Shown: piece by piece, positions 25,555-34,980 of the stretch
Layout of the letters: each line of letters starts with the position of its first letter
How positions within the stretch are numbered: the first letter of the stretch is position 1
Assembly: GCA_029245725.1 (NCBI GenBank)
Contig: JAQWOT010000383.1
Coordinates: 1 to 36,377 of the forward strand
Length of the DNA stretch: 36,377 bases
Direction of reading: 5' to 3'
Origin: SAR324 cluster bacterium
Lineage (GTDB): Bacteria > SAR324 > NAC60-12
Made by a program: the position numbers and the translations under genes
Notes under the pieces: model-generated
What the model saw: the letters and a program-made list of their open reading frames with translations, nothing else
Told to the model about the DNA's origin: nothing
Databases searched by the model: none

Positions 25555-26547
25555 ATGACTGATCCAACAAGGATTCTGATTCGCATGCCGAACTGGTTAG
25601 GTGATCTGATGATGGCAACAGCTTTTTGTCGGGCAGTGTTAGAACGTTTTCCCAAAGCAACGGTGGACCTGATCGTCCGTAAGGGCTTTGAAGGGTTACC
25701 GCTGCCTCATCGGGGCACGCTCTTACCTTTTGACCGAGAACTAACCAAGGCAGGAGATTTTGGTGCTGAGCTTGCCAACCGAGGTTACCAACGGATCTAT
25801 GTGTTGCCACCCAGCTTTTCTTCCGCATGGATGGCTTGGCGCAGCCGCATTCCTGAACGCATCGGTTACTCTGGCGATGGCAGGCGATGGTTTTTGCGTC
25901 CGGCCATACAACCTGCTTGGCAACCGCGCACACGGCATCTTGTTGAAGAGTACCTTCATCTTCTCAGTCCACAGGATCCCAAGACCTTGTTGGTTTTTCC
26001 ACAGCTTGAGTTGAGCGAAGAGTGGGTCAGTGAACAGTTGCGAGGTCTACCTGCACTACCCAAAAGTTTTATCGCGTTGGCGCCTGGAGCGATCTATGGA
26101 CCAGCCAAGCAGTGGCCAGAAGTTTATTACCATGAGGTGGCTGCCCAGCTATCTCAGAGGTGGAATGAATCCATCCTGATTCTGGGTACTCCAGCGGATC
26201 ACGCCAGTGGTGAGAAGATCACCCAAGGGCTGTCTGGCGTTGAGAACTGGTGTGGTCGTTCTAACTTACCGCAGCTTGTGGCGATTTTGTCCAGAGCCCG
26301 ACTACTGCTGAGCAATGATTCTGGTAGTATGCACATCATGGCGGCGTTGCAGCGTCCTCAACTAGCGGTTTTTGGTTCTACCTCCCCAACGTGGACCCGT
26401 CCTCTCAATCCACATGCTCGTTTCCTATATCGAGCTGAGCCTTGCTCTCCCTGCTTCGATCGTACCTGCCAATTTAGCCACACAAACTGCTTGATCAGCA
26501 TTCAACCGGCAGATGTAGTCCAAGAGTTGGCAGACATGTTGGAGTGA
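25555..26547 (+). CDS. waaF: LPS heptosyltransferase II-like (GT9)
   Basis: 330 residues, GT-B fold of the ADP-heptose:LPS heptosyltransferase family, which adds heptose to the inner core of lipopolysaccharide on the cytoplasmic side. It begins ILIRMPNWLGDLMMATAF, the WaaF signature, with later LAPGAIYGPAKQWP (nucleotide-sugar loop), LLSNDSGSMHIMAAL and FGSTSPTWTRPLN. The four cysteines near the end (PCSPCFDRTCQFSHTNC) are common in WaaF. No other core LPS gene is beside it. Heptosyltransferase II versus another heptosyltransferase is inference from the start motif and cysteine cluster. Confidence 0.9.
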   Translation: MTDPTRILIRMPNWLGDLMMATAFCRAVLERFPKATVDLIVRKGFEGLPLPHRGTLLPFDRELTKAGDFGAELANRGYQRIYVLPPSFSSAWMAWRSRIPERIGYSGDGRRWFLRPAIQPAWQPRTRHLVEEYLHLLSPQDPKTLLVFPQLELSEEWVSEQLRGLPALPKSFIALAPGAIYGPAKQWPEVYYHEVAAQLSQRWNESILILGTPADHASGEKITQGLSGVENWCGRSNLPQLVAILSRARLLLSNDSGSMHIMAALQRPQLAVFGSTSPTWTRPLNPHARFLYRAEPCSPCFDRTCQFSHTNCLISIQPADVVQELADMLE

Positions 26548-26643
26548 TGGCTGAAAAATTTAAATCTAGCAATGTCGTTAGCTATTCAAATATAGTGTTT
26601 GCTTCTTTTTGTAGAGTTTTTGAAACAAAGCAATGGAGTTGAC

Positions 26644-27468
26644 ATGAAAAAGATAAGCTGTTTTTTGCTAATCCTACTACTTTGGCTGGCGAATGGGTCA
26701 GCTTGGGCGCAGACCTACACTATCGGAATTGTACCACAGCAGTCGGCAAGCCAACTGGCAAAGCTCTGGGTTCCAATTTTGGAGGAACTGGAGAAAGAGC
26801 TGGGATTCAAGTTGCAATTCAGCACAGCTAAGGACATACCAACTTTTGAACAGCGAGTGTTTGAGGGATATTATGATTTTTCATATATGAATCCATATCA
26901 CTACGTGGTGTTCTCACAGAAGCCCGGATATAGAGCTTTCGCAAGAGAAAAAGATAAACTCATTCAGGGGATTCTAGTGGTACAAGAGGATTCTCCGATT
27001 AAAGATATCGAAGACTTAAAGCAGCAGCAATTGGCCTTTCCGTCGCCTGCAGCCTTCGCGGCCAGTGTGCTTCCAAGAGCAAGCTTGACCAAGCAAGGCA
27101 TTCCATTCACGCCAAAGTATGTGAAATCTCACGATTCTGTCTATAGATCCGTGGCCAAGGGGATTTTTCCAGCTGGAGGGGGAATCAAGCGAACTTTCAA
27201 TAGTATGCCAGAAGACATTCGCTCAGAGTTGAAAGTATTTTGGACCACCTATGGCTTCACTCCCCATGCGTTTGCCACCCATCCCAGGATTCCAGAGGAG
27301 CATGTTCAACAGTTGCAGCAGGCGATGATTGGACTGATCAACAAACCACAGGGTGCTAGTTTACTATCAGGGCTGAACTTCAAAAAGGGCTTGCGACCAG
27401 CGGTCGATTCTGACTGGGATGACGTTCGTTCACTGAACATTACCCTCTTGGATAAGTATCTCAAGTAA
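26644..27468 (+). CDS. PhnD-like phosphate/phosphonate-type periplasmic binding protein
   Basis: 274 residues. The signal peptide is MKKISCFLLILLLWLANGSAWA, cleaved before QTYTIG. The mature part is a PhnD-family (type II) binding fold: GIVPQQSASQLAKLWVP with the usual beginning, DFSYMNPYHYVVF (ligand loop), LAFPSPAAFAASVLPR (the phosphate-contacting segment, S-P-x-A...S), and KSHDSVYRSVAKG. The start ATG has GGAG 5 bases upstream. No permease or ATPase gene follows. Instead the next gene, 25 bases on, is a chemoreceptor, so it more likely presents a ligand to that receptor than feeds a transporter. The ligand is unknown: phosphonate, phosphite, phosphate or another oxyanion. Confidence 0.85.
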   Translation: MKKISCFLLILLLWLANGSAWAQTYTIGIVPQQSASQLAKLWVPILEELEKELGFKLQFSTAKDIPTFEQRVFEGYYDFSYMNPYHYVVFSQKPGYRAFAREKDKLIQGILVVQEDSPIKDIEDLKQQQLAFPSPAAFAASVLPRASLTKQGIPFTPKYVKSHDSVYRSVAKGIFPAGGGIKRTFNSMPEDIRSELKVFWTTYGFTPHAFATHPRIPEEHVQQLQQAMIGLINKPQGASLLSGLNFKKGLRPAVDSDWDDVRSLNITLLDKYLK

Positions 27469-27493
27469 GACCCTGAGGAAAGTTCACTCGCAC

Positions 27494-29005
27494 ATGTCTT
27501 TTCGACTCAAAACTATTCTCGGAATTGCGCTGATCGAAGCACTGACGCTCTCTATTCTAATTTGGAGTAGCTTGCACTCACTGCGCACGTCTCATGAGCA
27601 GGAATTGCTACGCTCTAGTCATACTGCGGCAGAACTGTTTGCCAGCATGACCAAAGATGCAGCGATTGCCTACGACTTGGCAACGTTAGAGAGTTTTGTG
27701 GAAGACGTACTGCGCAATGAAGGTGTCGTGTATGCGCGGGTCATTGCTCAAGGGCAGGAGTTGGCAGCTGGTGGGGATTCTGCTTTGCTGCTACAAGAGT
27801 TCCAATCTGATGATGGACGTAGTGTGGATGACTTGGCTAACAGTGTCTTCAATGTGGATGCAGAGATTTTTGAAAGTGATGTTTCGTTGGTGCGTGTGGA
27901 ATTAGGTTTTTCCACTACCAAGATTGAGGCAGCAATCAGTGCGGCTCGGAATCGAACCCTAATAATTGCTGCTGTGGAATTATTGTTTGCAGCCATATTG
28001 TCCTTCTTTTTTGGTATTTATCTTTCTGGGCACCTTAAAAGATTTCAGGATGCCTCAGGGCGAATAGCTGCAGGAGACTGGAATCATCGCATTCCAGTAC
28101 GGGGTAGCGATGAATTGCAAGATACAGTGGTTGCTTTTAACCAGATGGCTGAGTCTATGTGCCAAATGGCTATTCAACTAAACAGAGTCCAGCAGCACCT
28201 GGAACATTCCTCACATCAGGTGCAGCAGGAGTCCAGCATACTGGAGAGTACAGGTCGACAGTTAGCAGATCGAGCTTCAGATCAAGCAGCCTCCCTGGAG
28301 GAAATTAGCTCCTCAACTCTGGAACTGAATGCACAGGCCAGTCAAAACTATGAGCTAGCTACTAGGGCCACTAAAGGGAGTGAGCAGATGAGCCGCCAGG
28401 CACAGGTGAGCAGTGAACAGATGCAGCGCTTTTCTACCACAATGGAAGGGCTTGGATCTTCGATAGAGAACGTGACACAGATTACCTCGTTGATCCGTGA
28501 GATTGCTGCACAGACTCGCATGCTGGCAATCAACGCTTCAATTGAAGCAGCACGAGCTGGCGTACATGGAGCTGGTTTTGCGGTAGTAGCACAGGAGGTT
28601 CAAGAGCTAGCAGTACAGACATCAGAGCTAGCTGTAGAGATCACCAAGGTGGTTTCTACAGCTGAAGAGAAAGTGAATTCAGGTCGCAGAGTACTTAGTG
28701 ATACCCGAGAATCATTGAAAGAGATTTTTAAGACAACACAGTCAGTAGCAGAGATGATGCAGATGATCTGTAAGGCTGCCGAGGAGCAGTCTCAGGGAAT
28801 CCGTCAAGTCAATCAATCCTTGGAAGCGTTGAATCAAGTAACGATAGAGAACGTGCGTTATTCAGACATAAATGCGAAGTCTAGCTCGCAGTTGTCTCAG
28901 CAGGCAGACGAGTTACTGGAAGCAACACGTCAACTCCGTTTGCGGGAAGGAGATTCAACCGAATTTAGCATCTCAGAATCATCTGCAACAGAAGAAGAAA
29001 GATGA
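27494..29005 (+). CDS. methyl-accepting chemotaxis protein
   Basis: 503 residues. TM1 is about 7-27. A periplasmic sensor of about 125 residues (28-153) follows, then TM2 about 154-177, HAMP about 178-231, and a cytoplasmic signalling coil. The hairpin tip at about 336-372 (IREIAAQTRMLAINASIEAARAG, then HGAGFAVVAQEVQELA) binds CheA/CheW. It reads QTRML where most have QTNLL. The tail ends SSATEEER, without a CheR-binding pentapeptide. The periplasmic domain fits no family I recognise. The preceding gene encodes a binding protein, suggesting indirect sensing. No che genes are in the window. Confidence 0.93.
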   Translation: MSFRLKTILGIALIEALTLSILIWSSLHSLRTSHEQELLRSSHTAAELFASMTKDAAIAYDLATLESFVEDVLRNEGVVYARVIAQGQELAAGGDSALLLQEFQSDDGRSVDDLANSVFNVDAEIFESDVSLVRVELGFSTTKIEAAISAARNRTLIIAAVELLFAAILSFFFGIYLSGHLKRFQDASGRIAAGDWNHRIPVRGSDELQDTVVAFNQMAESMCQMAIQLNRVQQHLEHSSHQVQQESSILESTGRQLADRASDQAASLEEISSSTLELNAQASQNYELATRATKGSEQMSRQAQVSSEQMQRFSTTMEGLGSSIENVTQITSLIREIAAQTRMLAINASIEAARAGVHGAGFAVVAQEVQELAVQTSELAVEITKVVSTAEEKVNSGRRVLSDTRESLKEIFKTTQSVAEMMQMICKAAEEQSQGIRQVNQSLEALNQVTIENVRYSDINAKSSSQLSQQADELLEATRQLRLREGDSTEFSISESSATEEER

Positions 29006-29010
29006 TTTTT

Positions 29011-29038
29011 TTCAAACAAGAAAACAGTAGTGTAGAAT
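29011..29038 (+). promoter_or_regulatory. candidate promoter before the H-NOX/kinase pair
   Basis: TTCAAA (29011-29016), a 16-base spacer and TAGAAT (29033-29038) preceded by TG. It lies in the 70-base gap after the chemoreceptor. The imperfect dyad AGAATTCTCTGTCAGCAGATTCT overlaps its -10 and could be an operator. The pair may thus have its own promoter as well as read-through from the receptor gene. Confidence 0.35.
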
Positions 29039-29075
29039 TCTCTGTCAGCAGATTCTTATCTTGGAGGAGACACAA

Positions 29076-29633
29076 ATGTACGGTTTAGTGAACAAGGCAG
29101 TGGAAAGCTTGGTTTTGAGTAAATTTGGCCAAGATACATGGGCCATCATCCGTGAGAAGGCGAATATTAGTGGACCCCTCATTTCGATGAAATCCTATGA
29201 TGATCAAGTGACTTATGATTTGGTCGGGGCTTGCGTTGAGGTCTTAGAACTGCCCCTTGAAGATGTACTCCACACGTTTGGTGAGTATTGGGTACTGGAT
29301 GTGGCTGTTGTCAATTATTCGAACCTAATGGATGCCAACGGTATGGGCTTTGTGGAATTTGTAAAAAATCTAGATCAAATGCATTCCCGAATTCAAATGA
29401 CCTTCAACAACCTGAATCCACCATCCTTTCAGTGCCAGGAACTCGACGCTGAAACCATCAAGATCTCCTACTTCTCAGAGCGACCAGGCCTCACTCATTT
29501 TGTAGTCGGGCTGCTTTCGGGACTTGGCAAGCACTTCCAGGAAGACATCAATATCGAAATCCTTGCTACCAAGGCAGATGGTGCAGCGAACGATGACTTC
29601 AAAGTAACCCATCATCCAATTAGCAACTCTTAA
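29076..29633 (+). CDS. H-NOX (heme-nitric oxide/oxygen binding) protein
   Basis: A 185-residue stand-alone heme sensor, homologous to the heme domain of animal soluble guanylate cyclase. It begins MYGLVNKAVE. The proximal heme ligand is H103 in LDQMHSRI and the heme-propionate motif YxSxR is Y132, S134 and R136 (YFSER). PPSFQC (115-120) and GLTHFVVGLLSGLG (138-151) also match guanylate-cyclase-type heme domains. Aligning through VVGLL places F142 where O2-binding relatives have a distal tyrosine, so an NO rather than O2 sensor is expected. Start ATG has GGAGGAG 6 bases upstream. The stop overlaps the kinase start by one base (TAATG), so the two are surely co-translated and probably partners. 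Confidence 0.93.
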   Translation: MYGLVNKAVESLVLSKFGQDTWAIIREKANISGPLISMKSYDDQVTYDLVGACVEVLELPLEDVLHTFGEYWVLDVAVVNYSNLMDANGMGFVEFVKNLDQMHSRIQMTFNNLNPPSFQCQELDAETIKISYFSERPGLTHFVVGLLSGLGKHFQEDINIEILATKADGAANDDFKVTHHPISNS

Positions 29634-32110
29634 TGCCTTCCACTTCCAGCGATCGTCAGATCAGCTTTGAGCAATTAGAAATCATCTGTCCATTTCATCT
29701 CCTGATTGGAGAAGATTTTCGCATTGCGCAGTTGTCGCATCTTCTCAAGAGACTCTGGCCCAAGTTGTCTGAGAATAGCTTGCTTCAGGATGTTATAGTT
29801 ATTGTTCGACCCTCAGGTGTCCAATCTGTAGCGCAGTTGGTTCAATTGACGGGGATGGTCATTCACCTCAGTATCCGCTCTCATCCTTCGCTGATCCTCC
29901 GCGGTCAAATCATCAAGCTCGATTCACAGTGGCTGTTTGTGGGGACTCCCAAGATTTCTTCTGTGAAAGAGATGACTGCTCTGGGGTTGGAACTCAGTGA
30001 TTTGCCGTTGCACGATAGCGGGGGTGATTTTCTGATGGCTATGGAAACCAGTCAGTCGCTTCTCAAAGAGTCGATGCAATTCGCAGAAGAACTTCAGGTT
30101 GCTCTTGAAAAAGAGAAAGAAACTCAGATGGAACTGCGCAAAGCCAAGGAAGCCGCTGAAGCCGCAAACGAAGCGAAAAATCAGATCATGGCGAACACTT
30201 CACATGAGTTGCGTACGCCACTGCATGGGATCATTAACCTTGCTGACTTGATTCGGATAGGAGCTTCAGGAGCGGTGTCTCCTCAGGCAGTCCAAGATTT
30301 GGAAGTGATCATCAGTAGTGCCCATCGGCTGACGTCGCTGGTCAACGATATCCTGGACTTCTCCAAGTTGCAGAAGCAACAGCTTGAACTGAAACTCAAA
30401 CCTGTAGATCTATTACAGCTTGGTGAGACCAGCCTGGCCTTACTGAAGCCACTCCTGGTAGATAAACCACTAAAGCTACACCACACCTTGCCCAAGGATC
30501 TACCACTTGTTGAAGGGGACGGAGATCGCCTTCAGCAGATCCTGCTCAACCTGTTGGGAAATGCTCTTAAGTTCACGGAGGGCGGAGAAGTCATACTGAG
30601 CGCAATAGTTCAAAATGGTTGGATTGAATTGGCTGTTGCCGATACAGGGATTGGTATACCCCAAGACAAGCAGGAAAGAATTTTTGATGCTTTTGAGCAA
30701 GGAGACGCCTCCACAGAGCGTACCCATGGAGGTACTGGCCTTGGGTTGAGCGTGGCGAAACAACTGATCGAACTCCATGGCGGACGCATCTGGCTGGAAT
30801 CAGTAGTTGGTCAGGGTTCTGTGTTTCGGTTCACCCTGCCATGTTCTTCGGCATCAGAAGTGGAGCGTAAAGAACCTGTTGCAGGAAAAAAAGCTAACAC
30901 CGCCAAAGCACTACCTGTTGCAGTGGCTGCACCCGTTGTCGAGGAAGAACTCGGATCAGAGCCAAATGTGGATCTCCTCGTCGATGATCCAAGTGAAGTT
31001 ACGATTTTGGTGGTAGATGATGAGCCGATCAACCGACAGGTGCTGCGGAACCAGCTAGAAATGGTTGGCTACCGGGTCGAGGTGGCAATTGATGGTCTGC
31101 AGGGCTTGGAACTTCTAGAAAAGTTAAGCCCACAGGTGATTTTATTGGATGTGATGATGCCACGTCTCTCTGGATACCAAACCTGCTATCGGATTCGTCA
31201 GAAATACAGCGCTAGTGAACTGCCGATCATCCTGCTGACAGCCAAGGATCAGCCAGAGGACACTGTAAGAGGCTTCCAGCATGGTGCTAACGACTACCTG
31301 ACCAAACCTTTTTCTAGGGAAGAATTGCTTATTCGTGTCCGATTCCACCTGAAGCTGAGCAAGGCAACTTCTGAGGTATACCGAATGATGGACGACCTGC
31401 GAGGCATGCAGAACCAGCTGATTCAGTCAGCTAAGTTAGCAGCTGTTGGTGAGATGACCTCAGGCATTGCCCATGAACTGAAGACACCCTTGGCAGGCAT
31501 CAGCACAATTCTCAGTGGAGTCGAACTAGCAAAGCAGCTTCACCAGGAGATTGATATGGATGCTACCTGTGGCCGAGTCAATCTGTTGGTGAAACGCTGT
31601 AGTGCCATCATTGAACACATGCGTAATTACAGCCGACGTACAGAAGAAACACATTCGCAAACCCAGATCATCAATCAGCTACTGAAGAATACCTTGCTGC
31701 TGGTAGAACCACAACTCAAACGAATTGGCGGCAAACTAGAGCTTAATCTTGGGCATGATCTTCCCTTTGTGGTGGGCAATGACATCCAGTTGGAGCAGGT
31801 CTTCATCAACCTCTGCAACAACGCTTGTGATGCAATGGAGCAGAGTGAAGAGCAGATTCTCACCATCCAGAGTATGGCAGTAGGAGATGAAGTAGTGGTT
31901 CGGGTGAGTGACACGGGAACTGGAATGCGACCAGAGGTGCAGGAACGAATCTTCGAGTCTTTCTTCACCACCAAGTCTTCAGCAAAGGGCACTGGCTTGG
32001 GGATGTCGATCAGCCAGAACATCGTGGAGCAGCACAAAGGACAGATCCGATTCAACAGTGAGCTTGGAAGGGGAACTACCTTCGAGATTTACTTGCCAGT
32101 AGCCAGTTGA
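29633..32110 (+). CDS. HNOBA-domain hybrid sensor kinase with two kinase cores
   Basis: 825 residues, no membrane segment. Residues 15-140 are an HNOBA domain (H-NOX-associated, as in soluble guanylate cyclase), ending in LRGQIIKL, LFVGTPKISS and LSDLPLHD; a signalling helix follows (145-185). The first HisKA has H191 (MANTSHELRTPLHG). The first HATPase has N-box N306/N310, G1 DTGIG from D337 and a GGTGLGL lid. After a linker comes a REC domain (456-575) with D462/D463, phosphoacceptor D506 and K558. A second HisKA has H614 (IAHELKTPLAG). A second HATPase has NLCNNA at 726-731, DTGTG from D760 and KGTGLGM, and ends at the C-terminus. Both cores look intact. No separate response regulator lies downstream. 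Expected input is the adjacent H-NOX protein. Confidence 0.93.
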   Translation: MPSTSSDRQISFEQLEIICPFHLLIGEDFRIAQLSHLLKRLWPKLSENSLLQDVIVIVRPSGVQSVAQLVQLTGMVIHLSIRSHPSLILRGQIIKLDSQWLFVGTPKISSVKEMTALGLELSDLPLHDSGGDFLMAMETSQSLLKESMQFAEELQVALEKEKETQMELRKAKEAAEAANEAKNQIMANTSHELRTPLHGIINLADLIRIGASGAVSPQAVQDLEVIISSAHRLTSLVNDILDFSKLQKQQLELKLKPVDLLQLGETSLALLKPLLVDKPLKLHHTLPKDLPLVEGDGDRLQQILLNLLGNALKFTEGGEVILSAIVQNGWIELAVADTGIGIPQDKQERIFDAFEQGDASTERTHGGTGLGLSVAKQLIELHGGRIWLESVVGQGSVFRFTLPCSSASEVERKEPVAGKKANTAKALPVAVAAPVVEEELGSEPNVDLLVDDPSEVTILVVDDEPINRQVLRNQLEMVGYRVEVAIDGLQGLELLEKLSPQVILLDVMMPRLSGYQTCYRIRQKYSASELPIILLTAKDQPEDTVRGFQHGANDYLTKPFSREELLIRVRFHLKLSKATSEVYRMMDDLRGMQNQLIQSAKLAAVGEMTSGIAHELKTPLAGISTILSGVELAKQLHQEIDMDATCGRVNLLVKRCSAIIEHMRNYSRRTEETHSQTQIINQLLKNTLLLVEPQLKRIGGKLELNLGHDLPFVVGNDIQLEQVFINLCNNACDAMEQSEEQILTIQSMAVGDEVVVRVSDTGTGMRPEVQERIFESFFTTKSSAKGTGLGMSISQNIVEQHKGQIRFNSELGRGTTFEIYLPVAS

Positions 32111-32337: not shown

Positions 32338-32727
32338 TTATGCTGGACCACAGTCTGTCGTTGCCCCCCGTAATCCAATCAAATTATTCTCCCCATCTTC
32401 CACACGTTGCACAAGTACTCGTTGCTTGTGGACAATTCCAGTGTCTTGCTTGATGATTCGGAATTCTAGCAAGAATTTTTCAGGCCCTTGTGTCTGAAGA
32501 ATCTCCAGTCGCTTCTGCTCACAATACGGCTGATCGTCCAGAAGTACGTAATTGAACAGAAAGTCCTCGTAGCTTGGTGGTTTCTCTTTGCTAATTCCAT
32601 AAATCTCATAATTTTTCTCACTCATCTCCGTGAACGTCATGGCCTTCAGGTCAAGATACCAGGTTCCAGTAGCGGTTAGGTCCTCGAGTAGGTCAACGTG
32701 ATCTGGATTTTTTTTGACGTGCTCCAT
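32338..32727 (-). CDS. small stand-alone PAS-domain protein
   Basis: 129 residues, essentially a single PAS fold of the PAS_3 type. The first strand region TGTWYLDLKAMTFTEMSEKNYEIYG and the middle YEDFLFNYVLLDDQP correspond to the usual W-x-x-D and F-x-x-x-V-H-P-D-D segments (here VLLDDQP). The C-terminal strands include EFRIIKQDTG and a final LIGLRGATTD. There is no output domain. The start is at 32727 with GGAG 8 bases upstream; a longer frame reaches 32778. It is convergent with the H-NOX kinase and could be a third sensor module of that system, though there is no direct proof. The upstream region carries paired repeats. Confidence 0.75.
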   Translation of the reverse strand: MEHVKKNPDHVDLLEDLTATGTWYLDLKAMTFTEMSEKNYEIYGISKEKPPSYEDFLFNYVLLDDQPYCEQKRLEILQTQGPEKFLLEFRIIKQDTGIVHKQRVLVQRVEDGENNLIGLRGATTDCGPA

Positions 32728-32746
32728 CCTCTTTGCTCCAGTTTTT

Positions 32747-32858
32747 GTTTCAAGGTTGTGACTTAAAAAAGTGGTCAACTTAGTTTAAAAAAGTGGATTA
32801 AGTGAAGATTAAACTGTAAATTTGCAGTTTTTCTTTATTTTAGTTTCAAAGTTGTGAC
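32747..32858. repeat. two interleaved direct-repeat pairs upstream of the PAS gene
   Basis: GTTTCAAGGTTGTGAC (32747-32762) recurs as GTTTCAAAGTTGTGAC (32843-32858), one mismatch, 96 bases apart. Between them TTAAAAAAGTGG occurs at 32763-32774 and 32785-32796, exactly 22 bases apart, about two helical turns. They lie 20-130 bases upstream of the PAS start. They may be operator sites or the end of a decayed mobile element; AAAAGTGG repeats occur in some IS21-family ends. Confidence 0.5.
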
Positions 32859-33552
32859 AAAATCTGAATAAATCATACTTTATAAATAAGTAAATTTATC
32901 TAAATAGTTGAATTTTTATGAATTATTTTTTTAATCTGTCATAAAAATATTTGACATCAATATTTGGATTTGATAGTCATTTGTAGACTTTTACTGTGCA
33001 AAATAATTGCCTAAATGAGTAATATCGGAAATCTCATGGGATGAAGACAGCAGAAGCACAATTAACTAGTAGGATGGGATTTTTGGACTGATATAAGAAT
33101 TGTCGAAGGTGGTTGAAAGCCCCGCACCCGGAGAGTTTGGCGACGCAACGGATGCGAAGGCTCAGGACAACATGACATTCCACAGGAATGACAGTTGAAC
33201 ATATAATATATGAGAATCCTGCCGGTTTTTCCACCAATTTCTGTATACATTCCTGTCAGTTGCCTGGGTAGTTTTTAAAGCCCTCGTAAATTTCTTGGCA
33301 AGTATCCACTTTGATCATCCTCCTTTGCTTCAGTCTAACTATTCTGAGTAGTGAACAGCTTGGTGTTTCAGAAGAAAGACCGCTGATTTAAGTCTGAGAA
33401 GCCTCCGATTTTGATGCTGACGTTTTCACATTTTGTGGCCTAGATCTGCCCACGTGGTTGACTGCAGCCATTCTACTGCAGCTTTCTGAATTGCGTTAGC
33501 TGCTCAGAGAACATGGATGTTGGTTTTCTCCACCTATCCGAAAAAAGACACT
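32859..33552. other. gene-free stretch with a GC-richer island
   Basis: Very AT-rich to about 33050 with no ORF. From 33060 to 33250 the composition becomes more balanced (CCCCGCACCCGGAGAG). This part holds the hairpins CATTCC-ACA-GGAATG (33176-33190) and CGCA-ACGGA-TGCG (33145-33157), but only short frames with stops in every direction. From 33250 to 33552 there is nothing clear except the promoter region of the lipoprotein gene. The island may be a structured RNA or a decayed gene. Confidence 0.4.
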
Positions 33553-34980
33553 ATGACTTACGTTAAACTATTCTTCTCGACTAAACTAAAATCAATAGGA
33601 CTGCTCTTTACGATACTTGTTGGTGGGGCCTGGATACTTGGCTCCTGTTCTCCACCCTGTGGCGATGGTGATCCCTATGGAAACATGGAAGAGTGCTCAG
33701 TCACCACTGATACAACCTCCAGTGGGGGAGGCTCTGGTGGTAGTACTGGAGGAAGTTCTGGGGGTGCCCCAGCAACCAACTCTATTACAAATGTGAGTCG
33801 CCTTCAGACTAGCTACAATGCATCACAGAACGGTGTCTCTGGATATGTTCTGGATAATGGAAGTGTCGTGATTTGGGGGAGATATTCCCTTAGCAATATC
33901 GATGACTGGAAGATCGTTGATAATCTGACAAACGTTACCCAAATTTCAGTCGTTAGCTATGCCAACTTGGCTACTAGCGGTAATTCTTATCACCAATGTG
34001 CAGTGCGTGCTGATAAGACTTCTATCTGCTGGGGGAGAGGAACCAAAGGTGAACTAGGAGACAACCTAACAACAGATTGTGGACTTGGGAGCAACAGTGA
34101 CAACTACCAACCCACTGCCTGTGCAGTTCCTATCTTCGACACAGCAGGAGCCACGAGCAATCTGAAGAAGGTCCAAGTAGGACCCGGATACACGATCTGG
34201 CTGGATCATGATGGGAATGTATACTCTGCAGGAGAGTGTGAATCTGGAAAATTGGGAACAAACTGCAGCTCTAATCAAGCCTATGGAATCAAAGTGAATG
34301 GCATCAGTAACGTCTCGGATATAATGGTTGTTGAAAACAGAGTCTGTGCTCACAAGCAAGATGACACTCTCTGGTGCTGGGGAGAAAACAGCAGCAACGA
34401 AATCACTTCAGCCAACACTAATGATGTCCAAGCTCCGTTACAAATCGCAAGTAGTGTCAAAAGCTTTGCTATGGGTTCAAATAATATTGGAATGGTCTAT
34501 GACAACAATACTGTTTTCTGTACAGATAATTTTCGTCAGTCAGTAGACCAATGTACTACCAAATTTGCACCATACACTGCAATCAAGCAGATTTATTTTG
34601 CTTCCGGGGTAGTGGGATTACTACTAGACAATGGCAGTCAAGTTTCTTGGGGCTATGATTACCATGGGCACATGGCATACCGATCAGGAGGTTCTCCTCA
34701 AAATAACTACACGGTCACGCATGGGCAAATCTATGAAAACAGTGCTTTCTCATTAGCTGATAACATTTCCTTCATAACTAGCAGCTCGGGGGGGACTGTA
34801 CATGCTATCATGGATAACGGTAGCGTGATTGGTGTGGGGAATAACGAAGACAGACAACTAGGGCCAACCAACGCCAATGTTCAATGTTCTTGGAATGGAG
34901 GCACTATGGGAACGGTGGGCGATAACAGATCGACCTGTGATCACTTCACTTACATTGGACTCTCTCCCACAGGATTTTAA
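33553..34980 (+). CDS. RCC1-repeat lipoprotein
   Basis: 475 residues from the ATG at 33553 (an in-frame ATG at 33517 is less fitting for a signal peptide). The signal peptide ends in the lipobox LGSC with C32 as the lipidated residue. A GGGSGGSTGGSSGG linker follows at about 55-75, then a beta-propeller of RCC1-like repeats. Each blade carries phrases such as SGYVLDNGSVVIWGR, HQCAVRADKTSICWGRGTKGELGD, VCAHKQDDTLWCWGEN, GLLLDNGSQVSWGYD and HAIMDNGSVIGVGN. The blades are irregular and fewer than the canonical seven may be intact. Many cysteines suggest disulfides outside the cytoplasm. Such propellers are usually protein-binding; the target is unknown. No partner gene is evident. Confidence 0.85.
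   Translation: MTYVKLFFSTKLKSIGLLFTILVGGAWILGSCSPPCGDGDPYGNMEECSVTTDTTSSGGGSGGSTGGSSGGAPATNSITNVSRLQTSYNASQNGVSGYVLDNGSVVIWGRYSLSNIDDWKIVDNLTNVTQISVVSYANLATSGNSYHQCAVRADKTSICWGRGTKGELGDNLTTDCGLGSNSDNYQPTACAVPIFDTAGATSNLKKVQVGPGYTIWLDHDGNVYSAGECESGKLGTNCSSNQAYGIKVNGISNVSDIMVVENRVCAHKQDDTLWCWGENSSNEITSANTNDVQAPLQIASSVKSFAMGSNNIGMVYDNNTVFCTDNFRQSVDQCTTKFAPYTAIKQIYFASGVVGLLLDNGSQVSWGYDYHGHMAYRSGGSPQNNYTVTHGQIYENSAFSLADNISFITSSSGGTVHAIMDNGSVIGVGNNEDRQLGPTNANVQCSWNGGTMGTVGDNRSTCDHFTYIGLSPTGF

Follow-up and report, generated by a model that had tools for sequence, protein, structure and literature searches.

Does a bacterial locus that encodes a heme-based NO sensor, a hybrid kinase, a periplasmic binding protein and a chemoreceptor form one integrated sensor, or does it hold two sensory modules that merely share a neighbourhood? 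We examined this question in a 36,377-nucleotide stretch of DNA (the window) from a SAR324 cluster bacterium. An ORF check and the Pfam domains of all four proteins confirmed an earlier note on this DNA, which had described four signalling genes running in one direction. The features of the cluster are as follows.

26548..26643, + strand, putative shared regulatory region upstream of the PhnD-type gene, retained in relatives that lack this gene and the chemoreceptor
26644..27468, + strand, PhnD-type periplasmic binding protein of 274 aa with a signal peptide-like N-terminus (PF12974, 2e-57)
27494..29005, + strand, chemoreceptor (MCP) with TM1, periplasmic domain, TM2, HAMP and signalling domain (Pfam HAMP and MCPsignal)
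29076..29633, + strand, H-NOX protein of 185 aa, of the heme-NO sensor type known from Nostoc and soluble guanylate cyclase (sGC) (PF07700)
29633..32110, + strand, soluble hybrid histidine kinase of 825 aa (Pfam domains, motifs, collinearity with the LvrA model)
29660..30145, + strand, HNOBA domain (PAS plus coiled coil) of the kinase (two PF07701 stretches; alignment to sGC beta1)

The stop codon of the H-NOX gene shares one base with the start codon of the kinase gene (TAATG), as had been noted. The remaining gaps are short, with 96 bp between a heptosyltransferase gene and the PhnD-type gene, 25 bp between the latter and the MCP gene and 70 bp between the MCP and H-NOX genes, and no terminator-like sites were found in these three gaps. 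Scans of the locus region for promoters and terminators gave no excess over chance. The sole source for the host bacterium is a metagenome assembly. We considered a mis-assembly within the repetitive signalling domain of the MCP but rejected it, since relatives show both flanks, including an MCP tail before H-NOX; the presence of the same heptosyltransferase-PhnD gene order in two relatives (G024 and G025) also counters a mis-assembly of the locus.

An H-NOX protein paired with a two-core HNOBA kinase

The single H-NOX gene of the genome encodes a protein that scored 156.8 bits against the HNOB profile (E = 6e-46, cut-off 25.5 bits). Its closest solved relative is Alr2278 of Nostoc (1.5e-43), and sGC beta1 was matched at 1e-29. 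His103, which aligns with the heme-ligand histidine of Alr2278, is kept, as is the heme-propionate motif YxSxR (Y132-F-S-E-R136). The distal-pocket tyrosine, which we take to be Y140 in the O2-binding Thermoanaerobacter protein, is absent, and the fifth and sixth residues past the arginine of the motif are His141 and Phe142, as expected for the NO-selective type. The conserved cysteine cluster of a zinc/cysteine redox site was not found; Cys53 and Cys120 are the only cysteines in the protein.

The kinase has the domain order HNOBA-HisKA-HATPase-REC-HisKA-HATPase, with the HNOBA/PAS region at residues 11-165 (approximately), HisKA at 181-248, HATPase at 295-404, REC at 458-569 and the second HisKA/HATPase core at about 600-825. 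The HNOBA profile scored 63.8 bits (cut-off 23.4), and the region matched the PAS/coiled coil of sGC beta1 (1.2e-8) and the Nostoc kinase structures 2p04/2p08 (0.013). Both cores are intact in their histidine motifs (HELRTP at 191, HELKTP at 614) and ATP-domain motifs (DTGxG at 337 and 760, GTGLG at 367 and 786), and so are the REC motifs VVDDE, LLDVMMP, LLTAK and LTKPF. No Pfam profile of a class III cyclase catalytic domain matched the kinase, which has kinase cores in its place. The input pair of sGC is thus present as two separate proteins with a two-core kinase where the cyclase would be, as had been proposed. Kinases with an HNOBA domain were reportedly already noted by Iyer in 2003, when HNOBA was first described, and those of Nostoc are not known to have a second kinase core. 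We identified no cognate response regulator of the kinase, and a query of plasmids with the HNOBA domain gave no matches.

Control of a hybrid kinase by a neighbouring H-NOX protein is established (PMC6759604), in agreement with the earlier statement that such pairs are known in bacteria. For HqsK of Vibrio parahaemolyticus and HnoK of Caulobacter, as here, hnoX is co-operonic or overlapping with the gene for a REC-containing hybrid kinase (PMC6759604, PMC12329717), whereas the SAR324 kinase adds an HNOBA input and a second HisKA/HATPase core past the REC domain. An HNOBA-type PAS domain likewise serves as kinase input in the Nostoc H-NOXA/HNOBA histidine kinase represented by 2p04 and 2p08 (PMC2828450, PMC8196705). 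The two-core layout itself, PAS-DHp-CA-REC-DHp-CA, is that of the 832-aa LvrA of Leptospira (PMC5863495). Residues 142-822 of the SAR324 kinase are collinear with the LvrA model (NF047465) and show this layout, but the score of 282.6 bits falls below the family cut-off of 1200. LvrA has a PAS input of unknown signal and, in the passages considered, no H-NOX partner is mentioned (PMC5863495), whereas the SAR324 kinase combines HNOBA with H-NOX. The suggestion that an HNOBA kinase with two cores is undescribed does not hold for the two-core layout, of which LvrA is a described counterpart. The H-NOX gene beside a hybrid kinase gene, HNOBA kinases and the two-core layout are all known, and each half of the SAR324 locus resembles known systems.

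A PhnD-type binding protein and its chemoreceptor

The PhnD-type protein carries the sensory-subfamily motif FPSPAAFAASVLPRA. It reached 81 bits against the NCBIfam model of PhnD (TIGR03431), which is below the cut-off of 261 for the phosphonate transporter family, and its gene is flanked by those for the heptosyltransferase and the MCP rather than by transporter genes. The protein matches ArrX (5e-11). In this alignment, the histidine of the SHD motif is kept and PAAFAAS occupies the position of PMSFSGH, so that the oxyanion-binding serines appear to be replaced by alanines; the binding residues of AioX (Ser161, Ser163 and His192, by a putative mapping) are accordingly not all present. Queries of phage records and viral contigs with the PhnD-type protein gave no matches.

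The MCP was recognised by its HAMP (9e-11) and MCP signalling (1.5e-37) domains and by two TM segments at about 5-27 and 153-181; the signalling tip is intact, and CheA is encoded in all six members of the genus. The periplasmic domain of about 125 aa has a weak similarity to single-Cache domains, seen via the homologue in the sister genus. The N-terminal half is 48% identical to a receptor kinase of this sister genus (G022) and 35-37% identical to receptor kinases of Vibrio and Salinivibrio. A single-sequence AlphaFold2 model of this half had a mean pLDDT of 50 and was set aside.

Signalling of a binding protein via a chemoreceptor, to which it delivers its ligand, is known from PstS-CtpL (PMC4926252). 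AioX, ArxX and ArrX are, as here, PhnD-fold binding proteins that feed a membrane sensor (PMC5908839); their partner is a sensor kinase, whereas the SAR324 output is the MCP encoded next door.

Losses within the genus

The expectation that the binding protein and chemoreceptor co-occur with H-NOX and the kinase failed within the genus, where conservation of the neighbourhood stops at the H-NOX-kinase pair. The PhnD-type gene is not intact in any of five same-genus relatives, being deleted in three (G023, G026 and G027, with an MCP tail left as a scar) and a pseudogene in two (G024 and G025), and the MCP is shortened or decayed wherever the contig extends to it. The deletions are nested.

26649..28819, no strand, segment missing in G027 (locus L002), comprising the PhnD-type gene and most of the MCP gene; the blastn pieces 26481-26648 and 28820-29170 adjoin
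26654..28896, no strand, segment missing in G026 (locus L003); the blastn pieces join at 26653/28897

The junction in G023 (locus L004), 26644/28897 by blastn, is nearly that of G026. H-NOX persists in all three deleted relatives with 92-95% identity, and the kinase was seen in two of them; the adjacency of the two genes is conserved in G000, G026 and G027. Both genes evolve under purifying selection in the deleted lineages, with dN/dS values of 0.07-0.15 for H-NOX and 0.11 for the first 1878 nt of the kinase. In G025, H-NOX and the kinase are lost too. What looked like a frameshift in the kinase gene of G026 proved to be a scaffold gap of 10 Ns. A recent insertion of the PhnD-MCP pair was rejected since relatives hold, at this very site, either the 3' tail of an MCP gene or a PhnD pseudogene.

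The segment upstream of the PhnD-type gene, reaching to about 26644-26653, is retained at 81-94% identity in the three deleted loci (blastn), and the deletions place it ahead of the H-NOX-kinase pair. The DNA at 26548..26643 is thus a putative promoter region shared by the cluster.

Relatives outside the genus

The closest outside relatives of the PhnD-type protein are Vibrio plasmid proteins (61% identity, as compared to 53-57% for G022), encoded 2.2 kb from an H-NOX/kinase pair in a cluster of c-di-GMP regulators that includes a NosR-family regulator. The PhnD-type protein and its receptor are hence found together with H-NOX in two phyla. In the NO/c-di-GMP cluster of V. coralliilyticus p319 the N-terminal half of the receptor is homologous to the SAR324 MCP, but the receptor ends in a kinase, the H-NOX belongs to a different type, with 21% identity, and EAL, HD, Hpt, CheC and HDOD proteins are encoded, unlike in the SAR324 locus. 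A PhnD-receptor pair 2.2 kb from H-NOX and its kinase, with the NosR-family gene adjoining, was seen in seven Vibrio plasmid records of one lineage. No NosR-family regulator scored above the cut-off in the SAR324 family.

Salinivibrio and G022, a member of the same family, carry the PhnD-receptor pair with no H-NOX nearby. In Salinivibrio the pair adjoins homologues of the EAL and kinase genes of the Vibrio cluster. In G022, H-NOX and an HNOBA-HisKA-HATPase-REC protein are encoded on one contig and the PhnD-type protein and receptor kinase on another; in both G022 and G047, H-NOX is followed by other kinases. At the other plasmid H-NOX loci that we examined, the neighbouring genes were of GGDEF, EAL, kinase or other types and a PhnD-type gene was absent, and a scan of genome contigs matched only near relatives. 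The pair is kept in four lineages with either a kinase or an MCP as output, and the subfamily is marked by FPSPAAFAASV in the binding protein and MS[FL]RLKTILG at the receptor N-terminus.

Two proposed inputs to one decision

From the observed gene content, domains, catalytic motifs, losses, purifying selection on H-NOX and the kinase, and recurrence beside the Vibrio plasmid H-NOX, we favour a reading, with a probability of about 0.55, in which the sensors of cytoplasmic NO and of a periplasmic ligand, two inputs that can be separated, are encoded together and serve a single motility or surface decision. NO would bind the heme of cytoplasmic H-NOX, which would then dock on the HNOBA PAS/coiled coil of the kinase and most likely inhibit the first core. 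The sign of this regulation is uncertain since NO-bound H-NOX did not inhibit the kinase in Caulobacter (PMC12329717). Phosphate from the first core may pass to the internal REC domain, the state of which would control the second core, and the latter would phosphorylate a response regulator or Hpt protein encoded elsewhere; in LvrB, it is established that a REC domain controls the activation of the kinase (PMC13269768). In the second module, the liganded PhnD-type protein would load onto the periplasmic domain of the membrane receptor, the output of which is here the chemotaxis array. This module would be an accessory, co-encoded because both modules inform the same decision between motility and surface attachment. 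The evidence for functional coupling is gene position, joined from outside by essentially one plasmid lineage, and we infer the coupling from it. Against the favoured reading count the PhnD-receptor pairs of Salinivibrio and G022 that have no H-NOX nearby, the lack of an intact PhnD-type gene in five of the six genus members, the additional loss of H-NOX and the kinase in G025, and the failure to identify a cognate response regulator or, in the SAR324 family, a NosR-family regulator above the cut-off. Tentatively, in at least two phyla the PhnD-receptor subfamily, with its interchangeable kinase or chemoreceptor output, may be a recurrent periplasmic second input to H-NOX networks, so that ligand and NO are read together in the choice to swim or attach.

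If the association holds, NO sensing in bacteria would not act as a stand-alone switch but would be linked to its own dedicated binding protein in the periplasm, the ligand of which could be sought directly. With the soluble two-core HNOBA kinase, the sGC input pair could be studied through a simple kinase read-out. The sister species, by their nested deletions, provide natural knock-outs that show which half is dispensable.

The stronger form of the earlier proposal, that all four proteins form one pathway with direct cross-talk between kinase and receptor, is improbable. It would account for the single strand, the short gaps without terminators, the retention of upstream DNA ahead of the H-NOX-kinase pair, as predicted for one transcription unit, and the second co-location in Vibrio. 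An obligate integrated sensor is nevertheless argued against by the loss of the second module in a genus that keeps H-NOX and the kinase and by the unlinked modules of G022, and the kinase, being soluble with its own REC domain and second core, does not need the receptor. What survives of the proposal is the plausible convergence of two inputs on one behaviour, to which the Vibrio plasmids point.

The same losses, the separate loci in G022 and the plasmid H-NOX loci that lack PhnD would also be expected if two unrelated modules had become neighbours by chance. We consider this unlikely, because the nearest outside relatives of a rare PhnD subfamily lie so close to a different type of H-NOX/kinase pair in another phylum, which speaks against reading the second module as simply unrelated, and because the Salinivibrio pair still adjoins counterparts of the EAL and kinase genes found in Vibrio. 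It is very improbable that the binding protein and chemoreceptor are decaying remnants with reading frames open by accident: such decay is evident in the five relatives, but here both frames are full length, the TM segments and signalling tip are intact, and the PhnD-type sequence keeps the motifs of its intact homologues.

Domain content of the four signalling genes

Four signalling genes run in one direction, as the earlier note had read from the sequence, and their positions were confirmed by ORF and Pfam analysis. All domains listed scored over the Pfam cut-off.

26644-27468 (+), PhnD-type binding protein: Phosphonate-bd
27494-29005 (+), chemoreceptor (MCP): HAMP, MCPsignal
29076-29633 (+), H-NOX protein: HNOB
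29633-32110 (+), hybrid kinase: HNOBA, two HisKA, two HATPase_c, one REC

The H-NOX and kinase genes share a single base, between the stop of the first and the start of the second. Among solved structures, the nearest relative of the H-NOX protein is Nostoc Alr2278, followed by soluble guanylate cyclase (sGC) beta1; His103 and YxSxR are present in its sequence, and a zinc/redox-type cysteine cluster is absent from it. The N-terminal part of the kinase matches the PAS and coiled-coil region of sGC beta1 (1.2e-8), and there is a weak match to the Nostoc kinase domain 2p04/2p08. Motifs are intact in REC and both cores, which bears out the claim of an HNOBA kinase with two cores. No transmembrane segment was found in its sequence. 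Downstream of the kinase are a convergent ORF with a weak PAS_3 match (32341-32778, -) and an RCC1-type repeat protein with a lipoprotein-like N-terminus (33517-34980). In the same-genus genome G026, too, the kinase is followed by an ORF, similar in size to the first of these (L012, 1050-1439).

The H-NOX and kinase module in the phylum

H-NOX and HNOBA matches were each found in 6 of the phylum's 52 genomes, a set in which many assemblies are incomplete; the near relatives that have names come from metagenomes and bear the label Deltaproteobacteria or uncultured proteobacterium. In G022, from another genus of the family, H-NOX is followed by a single-core HNOBA-HisKA-HATPase-REC kinase, and in G047, from another family, it is followed by a PAS kinase, with the response regulator encoded separately. 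Within this small sample, the second core is an added feature found only in the window's genus. The two-core layout, PAS-DHp-CA-REC-DHp-CA, is that reported for Leptospira LvrA (PMC5863495). The NCBIfam match to LvrA is one collinear stretch, but it scores far under the cut-off. Since LvrB is a kinase under REC control (PMC13269768), we infer by analogy that core 1 would phosphorylate REC and thereby gate core 2.

Deletion and decay within the genus

All four genes are intact in only one of six genus members, the window genome. In three same-genus relatives the PhnD start region is fused to the MCP 3' end, with these junctions in window coordinates.

G027: 26648/28820
G026: 26653/28897
G023: 26644/28897

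All three retain the upstream DNA, the MCP scar and H-NOX. In G026 and G027 H-NOX is followed by the kinase, broken by a scaffold gap in the former and by the contig end in the latter, and the G023 contig stops within H-NOX. The dN/dS values were 0.07-0.15 for H-NOX and 0.11 for the kinase. PhnD pseudogenes occupy the same site in G024, visible until its contig stops within PhnD, and in G025, where remnants of the MCP, the H-NOX 3' end and the kinase 5' end show that the whole cluster has decayed. Junctions, scars and pseudogenes together point to the ancestral order heptosyltransferase-PhnD-MCP-H-NOX-kinase, and the deletions place the PhnD upstream region before H-NOX-kinase, which would fit one transcription unit. 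The H-NOX neighbourhood, which the earlier note proposed to check, is conserved for a kinase partner (G026, G027, G022 and G047) but not for PhnD and MCP, deleted apart from the MCP 3' end in G023, G026 and G027.

PhnD lesions, including a 34-bp deletion, are common to G025 (L050) and G024 (L051), and one deletion junction to G023 (L004) and G026 (L003). The neighbouring trpS-purB-heptosyltransferase block gives a tree that groups these genomes differently, which would reflect either local recombination or chimeric assemblies at this site. A different membrane-anchored MCP, 80% identical to the window MCP in the signalling domain, takes the place of the lost cluster in G025 (L050, 8509-9498). 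Four contigs end within MCP signalling domains 64-72% identical to that of the window (G000:C83:1-348 and G000:C226:8-283 of the window genome, G027:C135:2-562, G024:C9:28-861); chemoreceptor paralogues seem to break these assemblies.

The PhnD-type protein and its receptor

The subfamily of the PhnD-type protein carries the motif FPSPAAFAASV; in this stretch of the alignment ArrX reads PMSFSGH. Alanines appear to stand here in place of the oxyanion-binding serines of AioX and PhnD (PMC5908839), which makes a phosphonate an unlikely ligand. A relative of the protein in G022 precedes a receptor that ends in a kinase; over its first 195 residues this receptor shares 48% identity with the window MCP. 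In G022 and G021, an MCP or receptor kinase likewise adjoins more distant PhnD relatives. Judged from these arrangements, the two genes would form a binding-protein/receptor pair with interchangeable output, MCP or kinase.

Outside the phylum, the protein search covered plasmid records, of which only ten held the subfamily at at least about 55% identity; the next matches to the Vibrio PhnD protein dropped to 27% and were transporter proteins. In seven Vibrio records, essentially one lineage, PhnD and a receptor kinase lie 2.2 kb from H-NOX and a kinase and also adjoin Hpt, REC-HD, REC-GGDEF-EAL, PAS kinase, CheC and HDOD genes. The REC-HD protein exceeds the cut-off of the NosR-family model, named by NCBI for nitric oxide (466 versus 400 bits); no protein in the window's family does so. 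The V. coralliilyticus p319 cluster (L088, record 8000-34000) reads HDOD, RR, CheC, PAS kinase, REC-GGDEF-EAL, REC-HD, Hpt, PhnD, receptor kinase, H-NOX, kinase. Three Salinivibrio records have an EAL and a kinase gene beside PhnD and receptor kinase; in the one record compared, the EAL and kinase proteins share 43% and 50% identity with their Vibrio counterparts, and no H-NOX is annotated within 12 kb. Identity between the Vibrio H-NOX and that of the window is only 21%, and the Vibrio kinase, unlike the window kinase, lacks HNOBA, so simple inheritance of one cluster does not account for the co-location. Among other plasmid H-NOX loci (13 fetched, 10 annotated), a PhnD neighbour was found in 0 of 10. 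On a Rhodobacteraceae bacterium SC52 plasmid (L087, 6001-8297), a stand-alone H-NOX-like gene annotated guanylate cyclase, likely a misannotation, precedes a gene annotated response regulator.

Putative roles of the two modules

The proposal that the four genes integrate NO and a periplasmic ligand to control behaviour gains from the recurrence beside H-NOX in Vibrio plasmids but is weakened by the persistence of H-NOX, with the kinase in G026 and G027, after loss of PhnD and most of the MCP. We infer that both modules may serve the same swim-or-settle decision, a reading supported by the Vibrio co-location and limited by the loss pattern in the genus. Most likely, the HNOBA kinase would receive the NO signal from H-NOX and relay phosphate through its two cores and REC to a regulator. 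In Vibrio, NO-bound H-NOX inhibits the neighbouring hybrid kinase (PMC6759604), with Caulobacter as an exception (PMC12329717). Separately, the binding protein would signal its ligand to the chemotaxis array, which the window genome has, CheA being present in all six genus members.
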